Shown: positions 22,752 through 37,861 of the stretch, one piece after another
How the letters are laid out: every line of letters starts with the position of its first letter
How positions within the stretch are numbered: position 1 is the first letter of the stretch
DNA from: an uncultured Desulfuromonadales bacterium
GTDB lineage: Bacteria > Desulfobacterota > Desulfuromonadia > Geobacterales > CAIOGM01
DNA: 53,535 bases
Assembly: GCA_903929485.1 (NCBI GenBank)
Contig: CAIYUY010000290.1
Coordinates: 1 to 53,535 of the forward strand
Reading direction: 5' to 3'
Program-made: the position numbers and the translations under genes
The notes under the pieces: generated by a model
Databases searched by the model: none
Told to the model about the DNA's origin: nothing
What the model saw: the letters and a program-made list of their open reading frames with translations, nothing else

Positions 22752-25184
22752 TCAGTACCTGTTCCCCTGATAATCCTCATAGAATACCTTGCCGGCGATG
22801 GCGAGGCTGGAGCCGGCTCTGATACCATGGCGGACCCGGCTAATAATCCTGAAACTCCTTTTTTCACCGGCGCCCAGTTCCTCAATGGTCCAAGCGGGCT
22901 CTTTTCCTCGCAGGGACGCCACCGGTTCCGTCCCCACTAGTTCAAGCTGTTCCGGTATCACGCTCTCCAGGGAGACGGAACGAGCAACGGCGGAACCACG
23001 ATTGAAGCAGGTTAATTCGATGATGGCAATCTCCCCCGGTTTGAGTCGTCCCCCTTCACCAACCAGTGAGAGTTCCACAACCGGTCGGGCAAAGGTTATT
23101 TTCAGTTTTGCGCCGGCCCTGACAGCACTGCCTGAAACCGACTCTGCTGCAAGGGATATGGAGACTTCAGCTCTGTCGGCGGTTTCCGGTGGGGTGGTCA
23201 CCGCCATGATGAAATGTTGCGTTTCGTCCGGGGCCAAGAGGAACGGGCCGGTCACCGGAGGTTCACGATTGTCACGTTGTCCGTTTCCTTGGACATCTTT
23301 GTAGAACTGCGCGGTAAAGCCCATGGGGAGGATGGCGCTCATGCTCACCGGTTCCTTCACATTACCGCTGTTGGTTACGGAGACCGGTACGGAGAGAAGC
23401 TGTCCCGGCACGGCAACCAGTCGTTCCTGGTTAAGCGAGAGCGCAACACCGCTGACGGCGCTCACCGTTGCCGCCGGTGATACAAAAATAGTCTTGGTTT
23501 GTAGGGCAGGATTAGTCATCTCACCACGACAGATCAACTCCTGTCCGGCTGGGCTCCCCTTTTTTAGCCGGAAAGTGACGGAGAGTTCCCTGCTTGCTCC
23601 CGATGCGAGATCGATGTTCTCAAGAACGAGATTGCCTGACTCGTAGAGAAAGCCGGGATAGGAAATCGGCTCAAGGAGGGACGGATAGTCCAATCGCACG
23701 TAGGCGCCATGCACCGGCGCCGAGCCCACATTCAAGAGCGTTATCCGGTAGACGATTTCTTCTCCTTGTTTAACCGAATCCTGAGCCGGCTTCACCACAC
23801 CACGGAGTAACGGCGCGGAGACTGCCAGCACCATTTCGCTGGTCCGGGAAACGGCCGTGCTGAACCGGGATACGGCCCTCACCGGGTAGCGCAATTTCTG
23901 GCCGTCAACACTCCCCCTGGGGACATCGATGAGCAACAAGCCGCGCCACCCCTCCCCAGGCCCCAGAAAAGGGGTCGCCGACAAGGGAAGCTCCGCCGCG
24001 GATGCAACAAAACGTGGGGCGAATTCCGTGGGAAAACCGGTCTCCAGGGTGAAACTGTCCGAACCGTTTCCATTGTTCACGACGGCAACGGGGATGAAGT
24101 ACCTTCTCCCTGCTTCCGGTCGCGCCGGCGGCGGTGTCACGGAAATTGTCAGGTCGGAAAATTGCTCCACTTCAATGGTCAGCGTATGGCTCGCTCCAGC
24201 TGTGCTTCGTGAAGCGACCTCTTTCTGTTGTTGTGGAATTTCCCGTTGAGGCGCCGGTTCGCGCTGCGCCACGGTAACCACATCGACTCCCAGCTTACGC
24301 AGACGCGCAGCGGCTTCGATGGCGGCCGGAGTTCCGGGGTACTGCACCAGAGTGGCGCGGTAATCGGAGATAGCCTGCTCTCTGAGGAGCTTGCTTTTTT
24401 GTTTACGAGAACGCTTCACCTTCTTGGCGGACTGCTGCTTGACCGGTTGCGCCGAAGCCGGAAGAGGCGTTTTTATCGCGGCTTCTTCCGGTGTGGCGGC
24501 TGGTGCAGGCGAAAACGTTCCGTTTGAGGCAGATAGCGCTATTATTTGCGCCCCGGTCTCGGCCGAAGATGATGGTTGAACCCTTGCACCTGACGCTCCG
24601 TTGGGCTGGGGTGATTGCAGGGTAGGTGGCGTTTCCGGTGATGGGGTCACACCTCGTGAAGAGTGGTTAAGTTTTACTTCTACATTTTCCTTCTGCTGCT
24701 GAGTCGGGAGAGTAGTCGGGGCATTTTCAACCGGAGCCGCCGTCGAGCCTCTGTTCAGAGTCGTTTCGGGATTTTCCGCTCCAACCCCTTTGGTTGTGCC
24801 GCCGCCGCGACCGTAAAGTTCAGCCGATGCGAGCAAATCCTCTTCCACTGTTTCCTTGAGAGGGTGATCGGGGAACTCCTTGAGGAACAGGGACATGTTC
24901 AATGCGGCCCCTATCCTGTCACCTGAACGGTAGTTGGAGCGAGCGAGCCAGAAAAGGGTCATGTCACGAAGTGGAGTTGTCGGATAATCCTTAAGAACTT
25001 TCGAGAGCTTATCGATGGCGAGTTGGTAATCACCCTTTTGATAGGCGTTAAACCCCGCCAAAAAGAGCGAAGAATCACCCGTCTCCGCTCCCATGAGCGG
25101 CGCGGCAAGCAGCACGATCAAAAGGAGTGACAGTAGCGTCCTGGTAATCGCTCTCCATGAATAAGATGAATTGTGAATTGACAT
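22752..25184 (-). CDS. Exported TPR and DUF11-like repeat protein
   Basis: An 810-residue protein. Its N-terminus has a signal peptide (LLSLLLIVLLAAPLMGAETG, about 14-34) and then tetratricopeptide-type helices (about 38-125: LFLAGFNAYQKGDYQLAIDKL). A Ser/Pro/Thr-rich linker (130-300) follows. The C-terminal half has several beta-sandwich units with the DUF11/CARDB-type pattern of 'VNNGNGSDSF', 'LLNVGSAPVHG', 'VTNSGNVKEPV' and 'CFNRGSAVARSV' (about residues 370, 480, 600 and 710). Such repeats are found in surface or periplasmic scaffold proteins. AGGA lies six bases before the ATG. It is probably co-transcribed with the LysM-TPR gene behind it. Confidence 0.8.
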   Translation of the reverse strand: MSIHNSSYSWRAITRTLLSLLLIVLLAAPLMGAETGDSSLFLAGFNAYQKGDYQLAIDKLSKVLKDYPTTPLRDMTLFWLARSNYRSGDRIGAALNMSLFLKEFPDHPLKETVEEDLLASAELYGRGGGTTKGVGAENPETTLNRGSTAAPVENAPTTLPTQQQKENVEVKLNHSSRGVTPSPETPPTLQSPQPNGASGARVQPSSSAETGAQIIALSASNGTFSPAPAATPEEAAIKTPLPASAQPVKQQSAKKVKRSRKQKSKLLREQAISDYRATLVQYPGTPAAIEAAARLRKLGVDVVTVAQREPAPQREIPQQQKEVASRSTAGASHTLTIEVEQFSDLTISVTPPPARPEAGRRYFIPVAVVNNGNGSDSFTLETGFPTEFAPRFVASAAELPLSATPFLGPGEGWRGLLLIDVPRGSVDGQKLRYPVRAVSRFSTAVSRTSEMVLAVSAPLLRGVVKPAQDSVKQGEEIVYRITLLNVGSAPVHGAYVRLDYPSLLEPISYPGFLYESGNLVLENIDLASGASRELSVTFRLKKGSPAGQELICRGEMTNPALQTKTIFVSPAATVSAVSGVALSLNQERLVAVPGQLLSVPVSVTNSGNVKEPVSMSAILPMGFTAQFYKDVQGNGQRDNREPPVTGPFLLAPDETQHFIMAVTTPPETADRAEVSISLAAESVSGSAVRAGAKLKITFARPVVELSLVGEGGRLKPGEIAIIELTCFNRGSAVARSVSLESVIPEQLELVGTEPVASLRGKEPAWTIEELGAGEKRSFRIISRVRHGIRAGSSLAIAGKVFYEDYQGNRY

Positions 25185-26711: not shown

Positions 26712-27620
26712 TTATTTGAGAACCGACTTGAGGTTGATGAAAGCCGGGGTCAGTATGACCACCAGGAGTCCCGGGAAAATGAATAATGCCAGGGGGACAA
26801 GCATTTTAGTGGCGGTTTTAGCGGCCTGTTCCTCGGCGATTTGTCTCCGCTTGATTCGTTGCGCATCGGAATAGGTTCTGAGGGTCTTGCCGAGACTGGT
26901 GCCGAACTTTTCCGTCTGGTGCAGCATGGCGACGAAGGAGCGGACGTCGTCCACCATGGTCCGCTCCACCAGTCCGTTCAGCGCCTCGGTTCGGGAGCGA
27001 CCGGCTCTGATCTCCATGATGACACGGTCGATCTCTTCGATGAGGGGATTGTGGCTGTCATGGAAATTATCCACTGTCTTGATGAGAGCTGCGTCCAGAC
27101 TCTGTCCGGACTCCACGCAGACGGTGAGGAGGTCGAGAACGTCGGGGAGCGTATGGAATATTTCGGTTTTCCTGAGACTTACACGATAATCAAGCCATAG
27201 GGTCGGGAGAAGATAGCCGCAAGCCGCGGCGCATACCGCCACCAGGAGAGAGCTGCTGCTCATTACGTCCCCTCGGGGTATGGCATAGAAGATCAGGTAC
27301 AAGGTCGGTAGGAGGATCGCCAAAAAAAGCTTGCCTCCCAAATAAACGTTTACCTTGTCGCTCTTGAAGCCTCCGCTGGAGACCAGTTCCCGGTACCGGA
27401 GCAGGTCGTTTGATTTCATCTTGATCTTGCTCCCCAGATCCGCCAGGAACGACTGCCATCGAGGGGGGGTGGGAACCAGGTCGGGACGTGACTCAACCTT
27501 GGACATGAGCCGGTGCACCCGGTTCCGGACCGTAACCCTCCGGTATACCATGGGGTAGATCAGCGCCCAGGTGAGAAGCATGACGATAATGAAAACAGTG
27601 GCGACTATGATGACGAGCAT
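26712..27620 (-). CDS. tadC: Tad pilus inner-membrane platform protein TadC
   Basis: A 302-residue type II secretion F-domain protein, the last gene of the Tad locus. Membrane helices are visible at about 1-22, 95-115, 122-145 and 270-295. The F domain lies between them, with PDVLDLLTVCVESGQSLDAAL and GTSLGKTLRTYSDAQRIKRRQIAEEQA. In the Tad machine it pairs with TadB to anchor the motor and pilus base. The start is 10 bases past the TadB stop. Confidence 0.92.
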   Translation of the reverse strand: MLVIIVATVFIIVMLLTWALIYPMVYRRVTVRNRVHRLMSKVESRPDLVPTPPRWQSFLADLGSKIKMKSNDLLRYRELVSSGGFKSDKVNVYLGGKLFLAILLPTLYLIFYAIPRGDVMSSSSLLVAVCAAACGYLLPTLWLDYRVSLRKTEIFHTLPDVLDLLTVCVESGQSLDAALIKTVDNFHDSHNPLIEEIDRVIMEIRAGRSRTEALNGLVERTMVDDVRSFVAMLHQTEKFGTSLGKTLRTYSDAQRIKRRQIAEEQAAKTATKMLVPLALFIFPGLLVVILTPAFINLKSVLK

Positions 27621-27630
27621 TGCGTTCCCT

Positions 27631-28590
27631 TCAGATACGGATATTGACGATTTTTTGAATCACCAGGAACCCGACGGCCTGGGCGGCTAGGACGGCATAG
27701 AGTACGTAACGACAGGTCTCGTTGGTGAAAAAAGGCTCCATGTAGCCGGGACTGACAACGCATATCATGCCGAAAACCACGAAGGGTAATCCCGAAAGGA
27801 TGTAACCGGATATTCTTCCCTCGGAAGTGTAGACGCGGATCTGGCGACGAACCTGGACTCTGGATCTGACTGTCTCGGCGAGTTTTTCCAGAGTTTCCGA
27901 TAAGCCGCCGCCGATTTCGTTGTTCATCTTGACGATGGTCACGAAGAAACGGAGATCAACGCTGTCGATCCGTTCCGGGAGACTCGCCACGGCGTCGGTG
28001 ATCCGCATGCCGAGCTTTTGTTGCTCATAGGTAACGCGAAAGAGTCCACCCGCCGGCTCCGGCATCATCTGACCGACCATTTCCACTGCCCCTGCCAGGG
28101 AGTGGCCTGCCTGGAGGGAGCGGGAAATCAAGATGAGGGCGTCAGGGATCTGTTCATCCAATTTGGAACGGCGCCGGACGCAGATAATTTTCAGGATGAA
28201 CGAAGGCAGGGACGCGGACAGTATTCCTCCCCCCAGGGCCAGGGGGAGGTTTCCCTTCAGAACAAGGACGACGATAAAACCTGTTGTAAAGGCTCCGAAG
28301 TTGAGGATTGTGAAGATGGTGGGACTCAGGCGGGTGCCCGAATATTCAAGAAGCCTCCCCACCGGTCCCTGGAGCGGTAGTCGGTGGATTATCTGTTCAA
28401 CCGGGGTCTCTTTCCTGAAGATGTTTTTAACATTATCCGTGGCTTGATTGTCCCACTCATTTCCCGCCATTCGACGAAGGCGGTGCTTCAGGGTGGCCGT
28501 GGGGGTCTTCCGTATGGCGCCAATGGCGGACCAAAGGGCGAAGACGAGGAGGAAAACAGCTGCAAAGGTAAGGATCAACGCCGCAAGCAT
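27631..28590 (-). CDS. tadB: Tad pilus inner-membrane platform protein TadB
   Basis: A 319-residue protein with an N-terminal anchor (MLAALILTFAAVFLLVFALW), a hairpin of helices near 100-140 and a C-terminal pair (about 255-319). The F domain contains IPDALILISRSLQAGHSLAGAVEMV and GGGLSETLEKLAETVRSRVQVRRQI. It is a paralogue of TadC and its partner in the inner membrane. It starts five bases after the CpaF stop. Confidence 0.92.
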   Translation of the reverse strand: MLAALILTFAAVFLLVFALWSAIGAIRKTPTATLKHRLRRMAGNEWDNQATDNVKNIFRKETPVEQIIHRLPLQGPVGRLLEYSGTRLSPTIFTILNFGAFTTGFIVVLVLKGNLPLALGGGILSASLPSFILKIICVRRRSKLDEQIPDALILISRSLQAGHSLAGAVEMVGQMMPEPAGGLFRVTYEQQKLGMRITDAVASLPERIDSVDLRFFVTIVKMNNEIGGGLSETLEKLAETVRSRVQVRRQIRVYTSEGRISGYILSGLPFVVFGMICVVSPGYMEPFFTNETCRYVLYAVLAAQAVGFLVIQKIVNIRI

Positions 28591-28595
28591 CGTGG

Positions 28596-29903
28596 TTACC
28601 TTTCGTCGAAGAGGTCGGAGGGGAGCTCATAATTGATCATCTTGAACCGCTCGACAAATTTGGGCCTTACTCCGGTGGAGCGGAATTCACCCAGAACCCG
28701 ACCGTCTTTATCGGTGCCCCGTTGCTCGAAGCGGAAAATGTCCTGCATGACGACGATACCCCCCTCCATGCCGGTGATTTCGGAGATCTTGACGATCTTT
28801 CTCGTCCCATCCTGAAAACGGACCAATTGTATGATGAGATGGATGGCGGAGGCAATCTGCTCCTTGATGGCCCGTTCGGGAAGATCCATCCCCGCCATGA
28901 GCACCATGGTGGACAATCGGGCCAGAGCGTCCCGCGCCGTATTGGCGTGGACGGTACAGATCGAGCCGTCGTGTCCGGTGTTCATGGCCTGGAGCATATC
29001 CATGGCCTCGCTACCGCGTACCTCGCCCATGATAATTCTGTCGGGCCGCATTCGCAGGGTATTCCGTAGCAGATCCCGCTGGGTCACCTCTCCTCGCCCT
29101 TCGATGTTCGCGGGGCGGGTCTCCAGGCGAACCACGTGGTCCTGCTTGAGTTGGAGTTCCGCTGAATCCTCGATGGTAATAATCCGTTCGTCGCTGGGGA
29201 TGAAGGCCGAGAGGACGTTGAGGAGGGTTGTCTTGCCGGTGCCGGTCCCGCCGCTGATGATGATGTTGAGTCTGGCCTTCACCGCTCCCTCAAGGATGGC
29301 GCTGATCCGATGGTCGAGGGTTCTCTTCTCCAGAAGATCGCCGATGGCCAAGGGGATCGTGCCGAAGCGTCGAATGGAAAGCGCCGGTCCGTCCAGCGCC
29401 AGCGGAGGGATGATGGCGTTAACCCGTGATCCGTCGGGTAGTCGGGCGTCCACATAGGGCGATAATTCATCGATCCGTCGGCCGACTTTTGTCACGATTC
29501 GTTCGATGATTTGCAACAGATGAGCGTTATCGCGGAAGGTTACATCACTTTTGTGTAATTTCCCGTCCTGTTCTATATAGACATTGTTGAAATTGTTTAC
29601 CAGTATATCCGAGATCCCCGGCGAGGCGATGAGCGGTTCCAGTGGCCCAAGACCAAAGGTCTCGTGCTGAATTTCGATGACCAGTCGCTCCTTCTCCTGC
29701 CGGGTTAGCGGAATGCTCTCCTCGGCGATGAGCGATTCAATGACAAAACCGATCTCTTTTTCCAGCTCGCCGCTCCGGAGGAGGTCGAGCTTGCTCAGGT
29801 CGATCCGTCTGATGAGACGTTTATGTATATGGCTCTTGAAGCTCTGCAGGGAACGGGGCAGGGCGTCGCCGCTCCGAGCCGGCACGGGGATGGTGGTGGA
29901 CAT
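28596..29903 (-). CDS. cpaF: Tad pilus ATPase CpaF/TadA
   Basis: A 435-residue secretion ATPase that powers Flp pilus assembly. Walker A is GGTGTGKT (218-225). The Asp box contains TIEDSAEL (243-250), and the Walker B region is RIIMGEVRG (289-297). The His box follows with [14 protein letters not shown]. The N-terminal helical part (about 20-100) is typical of the CpaF branch. I chose the start at 29903 because AGAGG precedes it; the 16 codons further upstream are not family-like. It is transcribed with cpaE, tadB and tadC. Confidence 0.95.
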
Positions 29904-29985
29904 CAATGACCTCTTCTGATAGGTGGAAGCTGTGAACCCTACGCCCCCCAACGGGTTGTCAAGGGGCAGATACTGAAGCCGGCGT

Positions 29986-31134
29986 TCAATGCGACCCGTT
30001 GCTCAATTCCGCCATTGTTCGGCTTGTTAACTCGGTGAGAGCCTTGGTGACAAGGGAACGAGGATAGCCGACCACCAGCGGGGTCCCTTTATAGATGGAT
30101 TCCTTTATTTCCACGTAGGAATTGGGAATGGTATGAAACGATTTGACGCCAAGGATTCTTTCCGCGTCGCTGATCCTGATGTCGTCTTTGGGGAGATACC
30201 TGTTGACGACTACCTTTACCCGATCCGGACCGAAACCCAGGCGACTCAGCGCCTTCAGGTAACGCCTGGCGTTGTTCAGCGCCGGCAGGGTAAGAGTGAG
30301 AGGATACAGAATGATGTCCGAGCCGTTGAATGTCTCCAGGTTACGCTCCGACAGGGATCCGCCGGTATCTATAATTGTTACACCGAACTGACTCTTGACC
30401 AAGGTAAGGAGATTCAGTATCTGATTCGGGGTGATACCGACGACAGCGCCGACTTCCTCCGGACCACAGAGAACCTTTAGTCCCGAAGCATGCTTGGTCA
30501 TGATACCCATGAGAAAACTTGCATCTATCTGCCCGACAGTCTCTTGTAGACTGCTCAGGGTATATGCCGGGGTGAGGTCCAAAAAAGCCGTGATGTCGTT
30601 GCTGAACGGATTCAGGTCCACCAGTGTCGTCATTTCCCCCTTGGCGCTAAGAGTCGCAGCCAAGTTGACGGCGATGCTGGTTGTTCCCATGCCGCCCGAG
30701 GGGTTATAGACGGTGATTATCTTTCCCCTCGTCTCATCCACCCCCTGTTTCTGGTCAAGCATCCGGGCGGTCCGCTCCACTGCATCGTCTAGTTCCTCGG
30801 TGTTGATGGGAGTCGTCAGATATTCTCCGGCTCCGGCTCGGATCAGCGTAAGTATCCAATCCGGGTGCTTTTCCATGGAGGTGACGATGATCATCGCATG
30901 GGGATTGTTGGCGAGAATGGCGGAGATATCCCTTACCCCCTGGGCGATTGACTGCGCCTCCAGGACGATCACCTGGGGAGGGGTGTCCGATTCAAGATAT
31001 TTCATCCCTTCCTGAAGAGAAGCGACCGAGGCGCTTACTTCAACCGGACGGCGGCATCGCGAGAGGAGATCGGCAATTACTGTCCTGGAAGCTCTGTCGC
31101 TATTGATGAGGAGTATTGTGAGGATGTTGGACAT
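29986..31134 (-). CDS. cpaE: Tad pilus localisation ATPase CpaE/TadZ
   Basis: A 382-residue protein with an N-terminal receiver-like domain (about 1-125, [13 protein letters not shown] to [16 protein letters not shown]). It lacks the acidic pocket of true response regulators. A ParA/MinD-type ATPase domain follows (about 140-375). The P-loop is atypical, SGGMGTTS, with no signature lysine after the glycines, which is common in the CpaE/TadZ group. These proteins mark the pole or site of pilus assembly. A promoter-like pair at 31232-31260 lies about 100 bases upstream, so cpaE may begin a second transcript of the locus. Confidence 0.92.
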
Positions 31135-31231
31135 AGTCACCATCGTGAAATTCGGAATTGATGCCTGGAACCGTACAGGGGGACGAAGAGTGATATCGAT
31201 TCGGTACGGTGACATGAGTGATAAAAACGCT

Positions 31232-31365: not shown

Positions 31366-31815
31366 CTACTTGATCAGATGGGGTTTTTGGGAAGAGTTAA
31401 GGCGCGCCGTTGCCGTTGCCGATACGGGAAAGGAATCCAGCGAGCCGCCGACGCTTAAAATTCGGGCGAAAAAGGTAGGCACCGGACCGCCGTTGTGCGT
31501 GGAGTCCCGACTGACCGTGACCTGAACGCTGCTTGTGGGGGTCGGCGCCGCGCAGGATATAAGGGACTCATTTTCAAGGCAGACAGGTTCAATCGGTTGC
31601 AGTTTGACGCCGTCGGACTTGTTTTCCCGCACATAGTCCATTGCTACTTGCCGTGGGTCGCTGTTGCTTGCAAAGGCGGCTGCTCCAGCCAGCGCTCCGG
31701 CATCGGCAGCGTGTTGAAGTTCTCCTTTCACAATGTAGAGATGCCCCACATCCACCGCAAGACCGAGAAAGCCGATCAGTACCACCATGGCCAGTGCAAT
31801 GAAGACGGTCATCAC
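31366..31815 (-). CDS. tadG: TadG-like pilus assembly protein, possibly frameshifted at the start
   Basis: A 149-residue protein with one N-terminal membrane helix (MTVFIALAMVVLIGFLGLAVDVGHLY) followed by ELQHAADAGALAGAAA. This is the standard TadG/TadE-like opening. The chain is short for TadG, with no C-terminal von Willebrand domain. The ATG at 31815 lacks a properly spaced ribosome binding site. A TAATG junction at 31838 with the secretin stop offers a better start, but its frame (MIASRRRE) ends after eight codons. One extra base in the CGCCGG stretch near 31823 would fuse the two frames into a normal TadG N-terminus. This is a suspected frameshift or sequencing error. Confidence 0.75.
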   Translation of the reverse strand: MMTVFIALAMVVLIGFLGLAVDVGHLYIVKGELQHAADAGALAGAAAFASNSDPRQVAMDYVRENKSDGVKLQPIEPVCLENESLISCAAPTPTSSVQVTVSRDSTHNGGPVPTFFARILSVGGSLDSFPVSATATARLNSSQKPHLIK

Positions 31816-31837: not shown

Positions 31838-34297
31838 TTACTTGCGAGGCATCCATTGAAACTCCGCCTGTTGCTCCGCCGTTAAAGCCTTATTGGCGAG
31901 GATTTCCGGCTTCGGATCGTCGACCGATGGTTTCATCAATCGGGGGGTGATGAAAAAGACCAACTCCTTTTCCATGATGTCGTCGGAAGTGGAGCGGAAG
32001 AGCGCCCCCAGTATGGGGATGTCGCCCATGAAGGGGATCTTGGACAAGGACTTGATGGTTTCACTCTGAAGCAGGCCGGCCAATACCAAGCTCTCACCTT
32101 CTTTCAACTGGACACTGGTTCTCACTTCGCGACTGTCTATGACCGGGTATCCACCCACCGAGGTGCTGGTGACATTGCTCACTTCGGCGGGATCGATCTT
32201 CAGATTAATCATGCCGTTTTCCAGTACTTCCGGTTTGAACTTCAGCTTGACACCCACATCCTGCCAGATGACGGTGGTGGTGCTCGCGCCATTGCTGCTC
32301 TGAAGTACGGGATAGGGGATCTTGCTCCCGGCCAGGAAATTGCCTTCTTCTCCGCTCCGGACCAAAAGATTTGGTTCCGCCAGGATCTTGGCCTTTTTAT
32401 TCGTGACCAAGGCGGTGAGCGCGGCGCCGATGCCCGGCTTGAAGAGTGAAAAACCCAGCTGATAGGCGTCAAAGGGAGAGGCGATTGCTCCCAGCGCCGT
32501 TGCCGAACCTGCCAAACTTCCCCCCAGACTTGTCGGACTGTTCAAGGCCGAGGCGAAACCTTCACCCTTGGTCCCCTTGACAAATGCGGTGACCCCCAGG
32601 CTCTTCAGCGCCTGTTTGTCAACCTGCGCGACTTTAACTTCCAGCAGTACCTGCTGTGGGTTGTCAATCTGTATCAGGTTGATGATCTTATAGATTTCAT
32701 GTGGCTTGCCGTGTTGCCCCGCTACCGTGCCGTCGGCGGCTTTCGGCGCTTCAACGTCACTTCTATTGGCGTAGGCTTTGGCCAGAAGTTCGATTTTGGT
32801 AATGGTCAGGTCATTGGTGGCTTTGCCCGAGAGGACCAGCGTTTCATTGGCATAAGCCACGGTGATCCGGTCATTGGGCGCGGCCTCCCGAATTTTCTCC
32901 TCAAGCTCACTGAGATCGGGTTTGACCCGGATGTTAAATGACTGTGAGCGGCCTTCTCTCTCCATGATGATGAGAGAAGTTTCACCTATTTTAACTCCCT
33001 TTACGATGAGGGTCGAACGGGAATGACCGTTATCCATCACGGGTGTGTAGGTGACGTTACTCCGTTCAACTATTGTCGCTATTTCCTTGTCGGCGATAAT
33101 GGGTGTAAAGATAGTTTGTTCCCCAACCGGGGAATCCTTGCCGTGGGCTGCGCCGTGGCGCGGATCGCTCAGAGTGAAATCCACGGTCAGAAGCTCTATC
33201 TTGTTGAGAGGTACCTCATAGCCTTTGACATGGATGTCATAGGTCTGTTCCCCCCCCCCTTCTTCCCATACGGTAAGGGCGCTTTTACCCAATGTTGTCC
33301 CGCTGATCTGCAGTTGCGTCGGCGTGATTCTGAAACATTTCAGAGAGGTATCCAGAGGTTCGCACCGTGTCACCGGTCTGGGGAGGTTCATGGTACTCAG
33401 GGGAAGAACGAGTTCCTGATAACCCTTCACACGAACAGTGAAGATCTGCTTCCCGCCATTTTCATCAACGACAGCTACCGAGGCTCTCCCCATCTTCATC
33501 CCGGTGATCTGAATTTGTTGCTTAGCCTTGATACTTACGCATTCAACAACAGCTGGATTATCGGATTCGCAACGTTGCGCCGGTTTTACCAGCGGTATCT
33601 TTTCACTGGAGTGGAGGGCGATTTCGCGCTCTACCGGTTGAGTTATCGCCTCGGACCGGCGGACAGTTTGAGCTGTTTTTTTAATCTCGCTCTTGGGGCG
33701 TGCGACTACATGGCCTATCATGGTCGGATCAACTGCTTCCGTTCGCTGGTACGCTGTTCCCCTTTCATTTTTCCTGATGAATCCTTGCGACTCTCCTCTC
33801 ACCACTAGGTCGAAGGACTCTTTTCCTTTTGCATTATCCCAAATAGTTACGGATGTCTCTCCCACAGCCATGCCGTCGATCTGGAGCCTGGAAGGGGATA
33901 TCTTCACGCACTTGACGATGGCGGGATTAGTCGCCTGCCATCGCGTGATCGGTTTTTGCAGGTCGATCACAACCATTTTTCTTAGCTCAATCTCCTTGAG
34001 TTCCCTCACGCGGATCTCGTAGGTGATTTTTTTTCCCTTGATATCCAAGACGGTCAGAGTCGTCTTGCCTGACGCCACTCCATTGATTTGCAGTTGTGTC
34101 GGTGTGATCCTGATGCAACCGGCAATGGCAGGGTCGGCTGATTCACACCGCTGCACCGGATTTTTCAGGATGATGGTCACACTTTTATTGAGACCAACCT
34201 GCGTCGTGTGGCTGGAAACAGCAATTGCCGGAAGCATCAGAAGCAAGGTCGGCAGCATCAGTATCCGAGTTGTCAGTTTCATCAGGTATCGGGTCAT
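31838..34297 (-). CDS. cpaC: Tad pilus secretin (CpaC/RcpA) with multiple N-terminal pilus domains
   Basis: An 819-residue outer-membrane secretin. After a signal peptide (about 1-28) there are four clear copies and one degenerate copy of the pilus N-terminal domain, at about 36-98, 105-168, 226-292, 297-359 and 393-459. Clear copies share a pattern of P-V-(Q/T)-R, (D/N)PA(I/V), (I/V)(T/S/K)P..LQI.G...G...(L/V)TV.(D/E). Cysteine pairs 9-10 residues apart occur in units 1 (51/61), 3 (243/253) and 4 (312/321). The usual architecture has a single such domain. The secretin core (about 540-800) is ordinary, with KAKILAEPNLLVRSGEEGNFLAG and LVLAGLL. The start overlaps the cpaB stop as ATGA. It forms the channel through which the Flp pilus exits. 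Confidence 0.94.
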   Translation of the reverse strand: MTRYLMKLTTRILMLPTLLLMLPAIAVSSHTTQVGLNKSVTIILKNPVQRCESADPAIAGCIRITPTQLQINGVASGKTTLTVLDIKGKKITYEIRVRELKEIELRKMVVIDLQKPITRWQATNPAIVKCVKISPSRLQIDGMAVGETSVTIWDNAKGKESFDLVVRGESQGFIRKNERGTAYQRTEAVDPTMIGHVVARPKSEIKKTAQTVRRSEAITQPVEREIALHSSEKIPLVKPAQRCESDNPAVVECVSIKAKQQIQITGMKMGRASVAVVDENGGKQIFTVRVKGYQELVLPLSTMNLPRPVTRCEPLDTSLKCFRITPTQLQISGTTLGKSALTVWEEGGGEQTYDIHVKGYEVPLNKIELLTVDFTLSDPRHGAAHGKDSPVGEQTIFTPIIADKEIATIVERSNVTYTPVMDNGHSRSTLIVKGVKIGETSLIIMEREGRSQSFNIRVKPDLSELEEKIREAAPNDRITVAYANETLVLSGKATNDLTITKIELLAKAYANRSDVEAPKAADGTVAGQHGKPHEIYKIINLIQIDNPQQVLLEVKVAQVDKQALKSLGVTAFVKGTKGEGFASALNSPTSLGGSLAGSATALGAIASPFDAYQLGFSLFKPGIGAALTALVTNKKAKILAEPNLLVRSGEEGNFLAGSKIPYPVLQSSNGASTTTVIWQDVGVKLKFKPEVLENGMINLKIDPAEVSNVTSTSVGGYPVIDSREVRTSVQLKEGESLVLAGLLQSETIKSLSKIPFMGDIPILGALFRSTSDDIMEKELVFFITPRLMKPSVDDPKPEILANKALTAEQQAEFQWMPRK

Positions 34298-35193
34298 TCC
34301 GTCGCCTCTTGAAGGGGTATTATGGAATGCGATGTTTCTTTTGCTTTGGATGACAGTTGGATGATTTCCATAATGACTTTTGATTTGGGGTGCTGCTGTG
34401 ACCGTGGTGACGCAACGGAGTGTTTGACATGGGTCGGCGTAGGAACCGGTTTTACGTCGGGCGCCTTCGCCCTGTTAAGCGCCTTGGAGACCGTCATGCC
34501 GGTGGTAGTGACATCGGCGGTGTCGATGACATTGCGCAGCAACAGTTGCAGTGATCCTTTTTTTGAACCGACGATGAGTTTTTCCGCATCAGCGGGAAGC
34601 AGATCCAGGGTGACCGTGGGGACGATGGTCGGTTTCCCCTCCTTTTGATCCGTGGCCTGGGCGCTGGCCAAAACCGGAATGTTCTGGAGGATGATCTTGC
34701 TGAACTGATCGTCTTGATCATTGACGTACGTGGGAAGTTGCGTGGTGAGCACCACGTCCACCCTGCTGCCGGGGGTGATGAAGCCGGCGACCCCCGCGAC
34801 TTCGTTTACCGCGACAGTGACGGCCCGATGTCCCTGGGGAACTATGTAGGTCATGACTCCTCCCATCTCGGCGCGATTCACCGGCATAAGTTTGGAATCG
34901 GTGACGATGTCGCCGGCGCTGATCTGCCGGATGGCGACTCTCCCCTGTACTTTGCTGTCACGGGGAAAATATCCCTGTTGGGGCAGATTTTCCTTTGGCC
35001 ATGCCGCCATCTTGAGATTTGCAGCATCCAGTTTCGCTCCCACCGGGATGTCGCGGGCGGCCACGAAAACCGTTATCTCTTGATGTTGTTTGGTCTCCTG
35101 TTTATTGAGAAATTGGTAGACCAGATACGACGCGACGCCCGCCAGTGCGAGCGCGACAACAAGGACTATGGATATGGCGCTTAGTCTGGTCAT
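34294..35193 (-). CDS. cpaB: Tad pilus periplasmic protein CpaB/RcpC
   Basis: A 299-residue protein with an N-terminal membrane anchor (about 5-27). A SAF domain follows (about 40-105: VFVAARDIPVGAKLDAANLKMAAWP and VAIRQISAGDIVT), then the RcpC beta domain with GHRAVTVAVNEVAGVAGFITPGSRVDVV (about 120-147). The C-terminal 60 residues are Pro/Lys/Ser-rich and not conserved-looking. CpaB proteins are thought to support or gate the secretin. It is coupled to the secretin by an ATGA overlap. Confidence 0.93.
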   Translation of the reverse strand: MTRLSAISIVLVVALALAGVASYLVYQFLNKQETKQHQEITVFVAARDIPVGAKLDAANLKMAAWPKENLPQQGYFPRDSKVQGRVAIRQISAGDIVTDSKLMPVNRAEMGGVMTYIVPQGHRAVTVAVNEVAGVAGFITPGSRVDVVLTTQLPTYVNDQDDQFSKIILQNIPVLASAQATDQKEGKPTIVPTVTLDLLPADAEKLIVGSKKGSLQLLLRNVIDTADVTTTGMTVSKALNRAKAPDVKPVPTPTHVKHSVASPRSQQHPKSKVIMEIIQLSSKAKETSHSIIPLQEATE

Positions 35194-35220: not shown

Positions 35221-35661
35221 TTAATTTTCATAGCGCATGGCTGCTTCACCCTTGATGGTGATGTTATTCAGCCCGGGGATGATGGAAGGGACAACTGTCT
35301 GGAACGGCAGTGTCACCGTCACGAGAATGGGAAAACCGGAACTGGGTGGGGACGTAATTGTCGCGCCACTGGACGTAAATACGATCGCCAATCCCGGTTG
35401 ATTCGGAACGAGTGCTTTTATCTGAGATATTGCCGTGGTCATGGGCAAAAACGGGCGCGCCAGGGCCGCATATCGTGCCCCAACGCGCGCCGCATTATTC
35501 AGCGTGTTTTTTGTGTAGACAGCCCTGCCGAATTCGATGATACCGAACACGATCAACATCAGAAGCGAAAGTGACAAAGCCAACTCAACCATGGCGGCGC
35601 CCTGTTCCGTTTTTCGCTTCCTCGTTTTTCCTGACTGCTGTAAAAAACGGAGGAAAGACAT
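35221..35661 (-). CDS. tadE: TadE-family pseudopilin-like protein
   Basis: A 146-residue TadE-like protein. A basic N-terminus (about 1-18) is followed by EQGAAMVELALSLSLLMLIVFGIIEFGRAVY, the conserved cleavage-and-helix segment with Gly-Ala and Glu+5. TLNNAARVGARYAA follows. The rest is a small beta domain. TadE-type proteins are processed like prepilins and are minor parts of the Flp pilus. AGGAGG precedes the ATG. Confidence 0.9.
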   Translation of the reverse strand: MSFLRFLQQSGKTRKRKTEQGAAMVELALSLSLLMLIVFGIIEFGRAVYTKNTLNNAARVGARYAALARPFLPMTTAISQIKALVPNQPGLAIVFTSSGATITSPPSSGFPILVTVTLPFQTVVPSIIPGLNNITIKGEAAMRYEN

Positions 35662-35754: not shown

Positions 35755-35937
35755 TTATTGGAAACTGCACGCGGTAGTACTGAACGCCTGGCTTACCTTG
35801 TTTTTGATCATCGGTAATGAAGCGACCGCGGCGATGGAGATGAGGCTGACAATCAGGGCGTATTCAAGCATCGTTGCGCCTCTTTTGCATTGGAGCTTGG
35901 AAGGAAGCTTTACATACTTGCTGATCATGTTTTTCAT
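35755..35937 (-). CDS. flp: Flp-type major pilin
   Basis: A 60-residue Flp prepilin. A basic leader (MKNMISKYVKLPSKLQCKRG) ends at Gly20. The mature pilin starts ATMLEYALIVSLI with Glu at +5 and Tyr at +6, the Flp signature. It has cysteines at 17 (in the leader) and 57. I chose the ATG at 35937 because AGGAG precedes it; a longer frame begins at 36027 but is not pilin-like. It is the first gene of the Tad locus. No prepilin peptidase gene is in the window. Confidence 0.95.
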   Translation of the reverse strand: MKNMISKYVKLPSKLQCKRGATMLEYALIVSLISIAAVASLPMIKNKVSQAFSTTACSFQ

Positions 35938-36274
35938 GGCGTTTCTCCTGTGGGTTAGAGTTGATCCGGTCGATTTACCTACTGCCAAGTGTTGATTGTG
36001 AGCTGTTGATATGCGCCATTCCATCACAGTGCGGCTGAATGCGATAACAGACGTTTATTTGAAAGAATTACAACCATGGTTTTTGCTGCTACAAAACAAC
36101 TATAATGAGTGATAGCATTTTCATTCAGTTGAGAGGGGTAGAGTGATTTAATTATTCATTGTAGCTCTTGAAGTTTCGTAGCAAGTAAATATTTATCCTA
36201 ATGCGGCGGAGATGTCAACTTTTTTAATTTTCTCTGATTGCGAAAAAACACCAATGCGTGGTATAAGTTCCAGC

Positions 36275-37861
36275 ATGAAAACTGAAAATGTAGACAGCTC
36301 CACCGTGGCGTCGTATCTTGCCCCCTCCTTGGGAAATGCAATTTTTGCCCTATTCTTCTACAGTATAGCCGTTGTTTTCGGCCAAAAGCTGCTGGGAGAT
36401 GGTGACACAGGTTATCACATCCGTGCTGGAGAGTATATCCTCAAAACTTTTTCCATTCCCAGCCATGACATGTTTTCCTTTATCACTCCCGCGCTCTCCT
36501 GGACTGCTCATGAGTGGCTGTCCGAGGTCATCATGGCAAAACTGCACGGTTGGTTCGGCCTGACCGGTGTAGTGGTTTTTTTTGCCGGGATAATTGCTTC
36601 CGTCTATGCGCTGTTGTTCCGGATGCTGCGTCGACTTAACGGCCATATCCTGGTCGCGTTGGCGTTGACCCTGCTGGCCATAGTTTCTTCAATGCTGCAC
36701 TGGTTGGCCCGTCCACATATCTTTTCGTTGTTGTTCATGGTCGTCTGGTACGACCTGCTGGATAGTTACCAGTACCACGGAAAAAATCGACTCTATTTTC
36801 TTCCTCTCCTCATGCTTTTCTGGGTCAATCTGCATGGCGGTTTCATCTCCGGTTTTGTTTTGCTGGGTATCTACGGCGCCGGAAATTTGTTTGAATCGCG
36901 TTTTGGTCCCGTGATAAATCGTGAGGTCGCCAGGGTCAAATGGCGTCTATTTCTCAAGATAACCCTTGTCTGCTTGGCTGCTTCCCTCGTAAACCCGTTC
37001 GGTTACAAGATCCTCCTCTTTCCCTTTACCTTGGTGAACGACCATTACATGATGGATCATGTCCAGGAGTTCCTGTCGCCGAATTTCCACGAAACGACTA
37101 TCCTCCCTTTCAAACTGCTTCTGCTTTTGACAATTTCCCTGTTGGCCGTTACCCGTCGCCGGTTGAGCGTAATCGAGCTCTCCCTGCTGCTCTTTTTTGT
37201 CAACATGGCATTTTTTTCCGTACGTTATATTACCCTGTACGCCATTATCGCCCCCCCCGTCGTAGCTCGGTCTGCGGATTACTTTCTTGGAGAAACCGGC
37301 GGACGGTTCGTTGCCTGGCTGAGACGCAAGGATGCCGGTATCGCCGGGATTGACGCCCGGACCCGTGGTTTCTTGTGGCCTATTGTCGCCACGTCGGCGG
37401 TGCTTTTCTACTCCGTAAATGGCGGCGCTTCCCTTGGCTTTGATGAAAAAATCAAGGTTGTGGCGGCGGTGGAGTTTTTAAAACGTGAGCATATCCCCGG
37501 TAACATGTTCGACAACGACGAGTTCGGTGATTACATCATCTATGCAGCTTGGCCGGAGTATCACGTCTTTGTGGACGGGAGGTTGGACATGTACGGCAGT
37601 GAGCGGCTTAAGGAGTATATGAAAGTCAGAAATTTTGAAGATGGCTGGGAAGCCGTCATGAAAAAATATGATATGAACTGGATAATTTATGATGCCGATT
37701 CCGCTCTTTGTCGCTACCTTCTCGCCCGAAAGGAGTGGCGCCTGATCTATGCCGACAAGGTCGCGGACATTTTTGTGCGCGACACCCCCCTGTATCAGCC
37801 GTTGATCCGTAAGTACCCCAATGTAAAACCGTTGCCTCCCGATCCCGCGGCCCTCCCTTAA
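36275..37861 (+). CDS. Membrane glycosyltransferase-like protein
   Basis: A protein of about 528 residues (549 if it starts at 36212). It has an N-terminal membrane helix, then LGDGDTGYHIRAGEYIL and SWTAHEWLSEVIMAK. This acidic loop is of the kind seen between the first helices of GT-C/PMT-like glycosyltransferases, which use lipid-linked sugars. About ten further membrane spans follow. The soluble C-terminus (about 410-528) contains NMFDNDEFGDYIIYAAWPEY and VFVDGRLDMYG. The start is uncertain; neither ATG has a well-spaced ribosome binding site. It may glycosylate a surface polymer, possibly pilin, since it is adjacent to flp. The methyltransferase follows after two bases. Confidence 0.75.
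   Translation: MKTENVDSSTVASYLAPSLGNAIFALFFYSIAVVFGQKLLGDGDTGYHIRAGEYILKTFSIPSHDMFSFITPALSWTAHEWLSEVIMAKLHGWFGLTGVVVFFAGIIASVYALLFRMLRRLNGHILVALALTLLAIVSSMLHWLARPHIFSLLFMVVWYDLLDSYQYHGKNRLYFLPLLMLFWVNLHGGFISGFVLLGIYGAGNLFESRFGPVINREVARVKWRLFLKITLVCLAASLVNPFGYKILLFPFTLVNDHYMMDHVQEFLSPNFHETTILPFKLLLLLTISLLAVTRRRLSVIELSLLLFFVNMAFFSVRYITLYAIIAPPVVARSADYFLGETGGRFVAWLRRKDAGIAGIDARTRGFLWPIVATSAVLFYSVNGGASLGFDEKIKVVAAVEFLKREHIPGNMFDNDEFGDYIIYAAWPEYHVFVDGRLDMYGSERLKEYMKVRNFEDGWEAVMKKYDMNWIIYDADSALCRYLLARKEWRLIYADKVADIFVRDTPLYQPLIRKYPNVKPLPPDPAALP

Follow-up and report, generated by a model that had tools for sequence, protein, structure and literature searches.

A Tad pilus secretin with five tandem N-terminal domains in a Geobacterales genus and a possible role of the array in docking CpaB

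The window analysed here, a stretch of 53,535 nucleotides from an uncultured Desulfuromonadales bacterium, carries on its minus strand (31838-34297) a gene encoding an 819-residue variant of the Tad (Flp/type IVc) pilus outer-membrane secretin (CpaC/RcpA), in which five tandem domains of one family, in a 2 + 3 arrangement around a flexible linker, precede a normal BON/secretin core. The feature is real, and it is an even call, in our judgement, whether the array serves as a docking arm that is probably stapled by disulfides, reaches from the secretin toward CpaB and plays a CpaI-like role within one chain. The gene limits were already correct in the initial annotation, to which the strand is added here. 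Both features typical of Tad secretins are present, a C-terminal PF00263 domain (E 4e-45, 153.8 bits against a cut-off of 27.5) and N-terminal PF13629; having one N-terminal domain, which is usual for the class but does not define it, is replaced by having five. Identity as a type II secretion or type IV pilus secretin was not supported by the profiles for GspD (155 bits against a curated score of 351) and PilQ (133 against 284), and the core falls within a clade of single-domain secretins from its own order (support 97/99). As a Tad secretin, the protein would form the outer-membrane ring through which the pilus passes.

A counting profile built from single-domain relatives gave five domains for the window protein and its two orthologs within the genus and a single domain for all 35 other secretins, in agreement with the previous statement that one domain is the usual architecture. 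Both orthologs come from metagenome bins (an uncultured Geobacter sp. and an uncultured Geobacteraceae bacterium). When a profile of the whole array was run on 277 genomes from the class, full-length matches came only from the three five-domain genomes, and PF13629, present in 90 of 395 genomes drawn from the phylum, gave more than one match within a secretin frame only in the window genome. Multi-domain secretins were not found in 63 genomes of a further class, and a plasmid search aimed at other phyla returned a single weak partial match. The comparison with relatives thus shows an unusual expansion, limited to one genus in everything searched, and the five-domain secretin is apparently rare, judged within its phylum. 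Further PF13629 matches in three genomes (G099, G122 and G493) proved not to be secretins when the frames were read, and G279 was discarded as a multi-domain case, its two matches lying in separate frames. PF13629 also matches non-secretins resembling Ig/Big-type repeat proteins (L059 3144-4472; L038 7368-9131; L039 6819-8597), and domain counts therefore need a check for the secretin domain. It should be considered that all the evidence is sequence-based and that the genomes are drafts or metagenome-assembled, a circumstance in which an assembly artefact or chance repeat might be suspected; the same architecture, however, recurs on separate contigs in three species, at about 51-57% identity and with the same neighbours, and because the three species agree we rejected this explanation, the chance of which is negligible.

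Run on the whole protein, PF13629 matched five stretches (E 1.3e-33, 115 bits against a cut-off of 23), and on units cut out singly it gave 39.2, 36.1, 29.4, 21.4 and 22.8 bits from unit 1 to unit 5, so that units 1-3 pass the cut-off alone and units 4 and 5 fall just below it with half-length matches. An AlphaFold2 model (23 related sequences as input, single chain only, mean pLDDT 69) likewise shows five seven-strand sandwiches ahead of the secretin core, although its pTM of 0.40 leaves the placement of the units relative to each other unsure; a second model of the array, from three sequences, was too poor for use (pLDDT 38.5). The RcpA N-domain has also been described with seven strands (PMC10499894). 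All features are on the minus strand. After a signal peptide (residues 1-28, 34214-34297; a helix at 2-26 in the model, with no lipobox seen), unit 1 (residues 31-98, 34004-34207) and unit 2 (101-167, 33797-33997) are both modelled at a pLDDT of about 90. They are parted from the rest by a linker of about 54 residues (168-221, 33635-33796), which has no Pfam match when cut out singly, has a pLDDT below 50 at 170-218 and is only 16-28% identical among the three species. Unit 3 (222-291, 33425-33634) is followed by unit 4 (293-358, 33224-33421), the best conserved unit, for which a local model scores 32-62 bits in the three species, and by unit 5 (360-459, 32921-33220), which has an insertion of about 21 residues after strand 2 and directly precedes the BON-type domain, the site occupied by the single domain in relatives. 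The unit ranges of the initial annotation are close to the model, except that unit 5 starts at 360 and not at 393, since the seven-strand model sets it there. The core consists of a BON/N-type domain (460-512, 32762-32920), with a helix-strand-strand-helix pattern and a weak BON match below cut-off (E 0.002), and of the secretin domain (536-790, 31928-32692), which is 68-75% identical among the three species.

This layout bears on whether the five units stack as rings to give a longer periplasmic channel in a wider periplasm. In the model, units 1 and 2 abut, as do units 3, 4 and 5, with only one or two residues between neighbours, and the related VirB9 N-domain forms a ring (PMC10499894). The poorly conserved linker, however, interrupts the stack between units 2 and 3, and CpaB has not shortened (286-299 aa beside five-domain secretins vs 252-339 aa in the others), so there is no length compensation. 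The linker makes a longer tube that is rigid throughout less likely than a docking arm; we consider such a tube unlikely, and the earlier suggestion that the periplasmic vestibule is lengthened becomes doubtful if all units are meant to do so rigidly.

All seven cysteines of the protein lie within units 1-4, and seven and six are present at the corresponding positions in the two orthologs. As previously noted, units 1, 3 and 4 each have a pair (C51/C61, C243/C253 and C312/C321) and unit 2 has C130 only, W120 standing in place of the first cysteine; unit 5 is cysteine-free. Across the three species the pair is kept in 9/9 copies of units 1, 3 and 4, and in unit 2 the first place is tryptophan in all three and the second is cysteine, phenylalanine and cysteine. 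In canonical domains the first position is mostly valine, isoleucine or methionine and the second some other hydrophobic residue, and in close single-domain relatives cysteine is scarce or absent beyond the signal peptide; on this comparison, the pairs are a new acquisition. In the AlphaFold2 model each pair sits on strands 3 and 4, at facing positions across the hairpin, and disulfides within units 1, 3 and 4 are likely. The same conservation argues against duplications that simply drifted to fixation, with extra units doing little: domains are often duplicated in tandem, and the cysteine pair is missing from unit 2, but units 1-4 have been kept in three species at 48-76% identity, against 16-28% for the linker, and all nine copies of units 1, 3 and 4 retain the pair. 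We therefore regard neutral expansion as very unlikely.

The secretin cores of the three five-domain species form one clade among the single-domain secretins of the order, a nesting that makes one domain the older state, and the expansion had one origin, on the branch to these three related species. In single-unit trees each of the five positions groups across the three species, and all five units must therefore have been present before the species parted. Units 1-4 cluster together (100/100 and 96/100), in keeping with their duplication from one unit that would already have had the cysteines; unit 5 is set apart by a long branch, and a tree test of its joining the other units gave p 0.31. The initial annotation had proposed a recent duplication of copies 1 and 4, both of which contain ITPTQLQI. 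Copy 1, however, shares 67% identity with its counterpart in another species vs 48% with copy 4 of its own protein, and in most single-domain relatives the same place is taken by ISPTQLQING or something close to it. We rejected the proposal on the basis of the unit tree and of the generality of the motif; to judge from the trees, the duplications are old. In G001, which is the fourth genome of this genus, the secretin has one such domain and lies in a different cluster (L037 7682-15545), and a tree joining this secretin with the three five-domain ones was rejected (p 3e-5). That Tad cluster is of another lineage, as if it had been replaced or gained separately.

The five-domain secretin is encoded together with cpaB, cpaE, tadA, tadB, tadC and a Flp pilin, in the order flp, tadE, cpaB, secretin, short tadG-like, cpaE, tadA, tadB, tadC, all on the minus strand. 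The Flp pilin (35755-36027) scores 32.0 bits with PF04964, just below the cut-off of 32.2, and its listed start is probably too far upstream. It is followed by a tadE-like minor pilin (35221-35661; PF07811, E 2e-17) and by cpaB/rcpC, encoding the 299-residue alignment-complex protein (34294-35193; TIGR03177, E 3e-64; PF16976 and SAF). Beyond the secretin lie the short tadG-like gene (31366-31815; PF13400, E 5e-12), a cpaE/tadZ-like gene (29986-31215; related to TIGR03815, score below its cut-off) and the tadA/cpaF ATPase gene (28596-29951; TIGR03819, E 1e-103, slightly below cut-off). The platform proteins were assigned by position and membrane pattern only, the tadB-like one (27631-28590) with a weak UpsF match and the tadC-like one (26712-27620) with no NCBIfam match. 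Defence-system families gave no match.

Several neighbouring genes are recorded here in their own right. The tadG-like gene adjoining the five-domain secretin encodes 149 aa in the window, 151 aa at L035 2326-2781 and 143 aa at L036 7602-8033, whereas in single-domain clusters the product has 342 aa (G001) or 387 aa (G048); the three five-domain genomes all lack the large C-terminal part of the protein. A gene of 527-614 aa without Pfam match, with many membrane-like stretches and the motif DTGYHIRAGEYILKT, neighbours the Tad genes in the three five-domain genomes and is likewise close to the Tad cluster in G048 (window 36212-37861; L035 7125-8969; L036 12407-14005; L040 51-1634). A short distance from tadC, an 810-aa protein (22752-25184) combines an N-terminal TPR/YfiO-like part with DUF11 repeats, and its TPR part could be a candidate pilotin.

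This family of N-terminal domains is known for docking, linking the outer-membrane pore to the inner-membrane machinery, and the partner that it is expected to contact is CpaB. In P. aeruginosa the RcpA N-domain binds RcpC, whose C-terminal hairpin is modelled to complete the sheet of that domain (PMC12307814), and a Caulobacter model places CpaI, a separate protein whose fold resembles that of the RcpA N-domain, between CpaB and CpaC (PMC13170226). Comparison of CpaB tails showed that the hairpin region in the window (VIMEIIQLSSKAKETSHSIIPLQ, 34309-34383, minus strand) is altered from the canonical VEIIKG type. Beside single-domain secretins the motif ends in [KRN]G (EVIKG, EIIRG and the like) in 27 of 28 CpaB proteins examined, the remaining one having EVIRR, and beside five-domain secretins it reads MEII..SSK in 3/3, the strand-like motif being kept and the turn differing. 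The CpaB of G001, which belongs to the same genus and has a single-domain secretin, keeps EIIRG. As the three five-domain genomes share one ancestor, the CpaB change and the expansion count as one co-occurrence and not as repeated co-evolution.

According to the proposed mechanism, a single docking domain would have been multiplied into five, and the array would hang from the secretin ring into the periplasm as a disulfide-stapled arm. Units 3-5 would give the pore a taller collar on its underside, and the flexible linker would let units 1-2 extend downward to capture the hairpin of CpaB in the inner-membrane alignment complex. The extra copies may thus carry out, as part of a single polypeptide, the task proposed for the separate Caulobacter protein CpaI. 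In the model, the units share the RcpA N-domain-like fold type of CpaI but sit in the secretin chain. Binding of CpaB by the array units is putative, and we infer it from single-chain models and sequence. The extra units might instead serve to bind something else (the cell wall, the pilus or some periplasmic protein), unrelated to CpaB docking: Ig-like arrays are common binding scaffolds, Foldseek returned mainly bead-on-string Ig and cadherin proteins, and a peptidoglycan-binding Tad protein was not seen among the cluster genes examined. However, no recognisable binding motif or partner was found and the CpaB hairpin has changed in the same genomes, and we give this explanation a slim chance, somewhat below that of the stacked rings.

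Among known systems, the best PDB sequence match is RcpA of P. aeruginosa (8odn, E 4e-33), which belongs to the same secretin family and has the same type of N-terminal domain, but only one (residues 28-112; PMC10499894), whereas the window protein has five, three of them with cysteine pairs. The Acidithiobacillus caldus secretin (8jvb/9wfd), found by sequence and fold, likewise has only one such domain in the matched part. The core is closest in sequence to single-domain CpaC proteins of other Geobacterales (e.g. L019, L015 and L037), which are 389-543 aa long, compared with 819 aa, and nearly cysteine-free when mature. The likeness to Caulobacter crescentus CpaI, drawn from its published description (PMC13170226) and not from sequence, has the difference that CpaI is a separate small protein and the extra domains here are part of the secretin chain.

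We tentatively suggest that this Tad secretin may have taken the bridging function into itself, as a disulfide-stapled and partly flexible coupler to the inner-membrane machinery, to which the CpaB hairpin has been retuned and for which CpaI is unneeded. The link from pore to motor in Tad systems is now being worked out, and it passes through the same domain that is multiplied here; a naturally occurring five-copy case, together with a matching change in the CpaB hairpin, would test which domain docks and whether the link lengthens.
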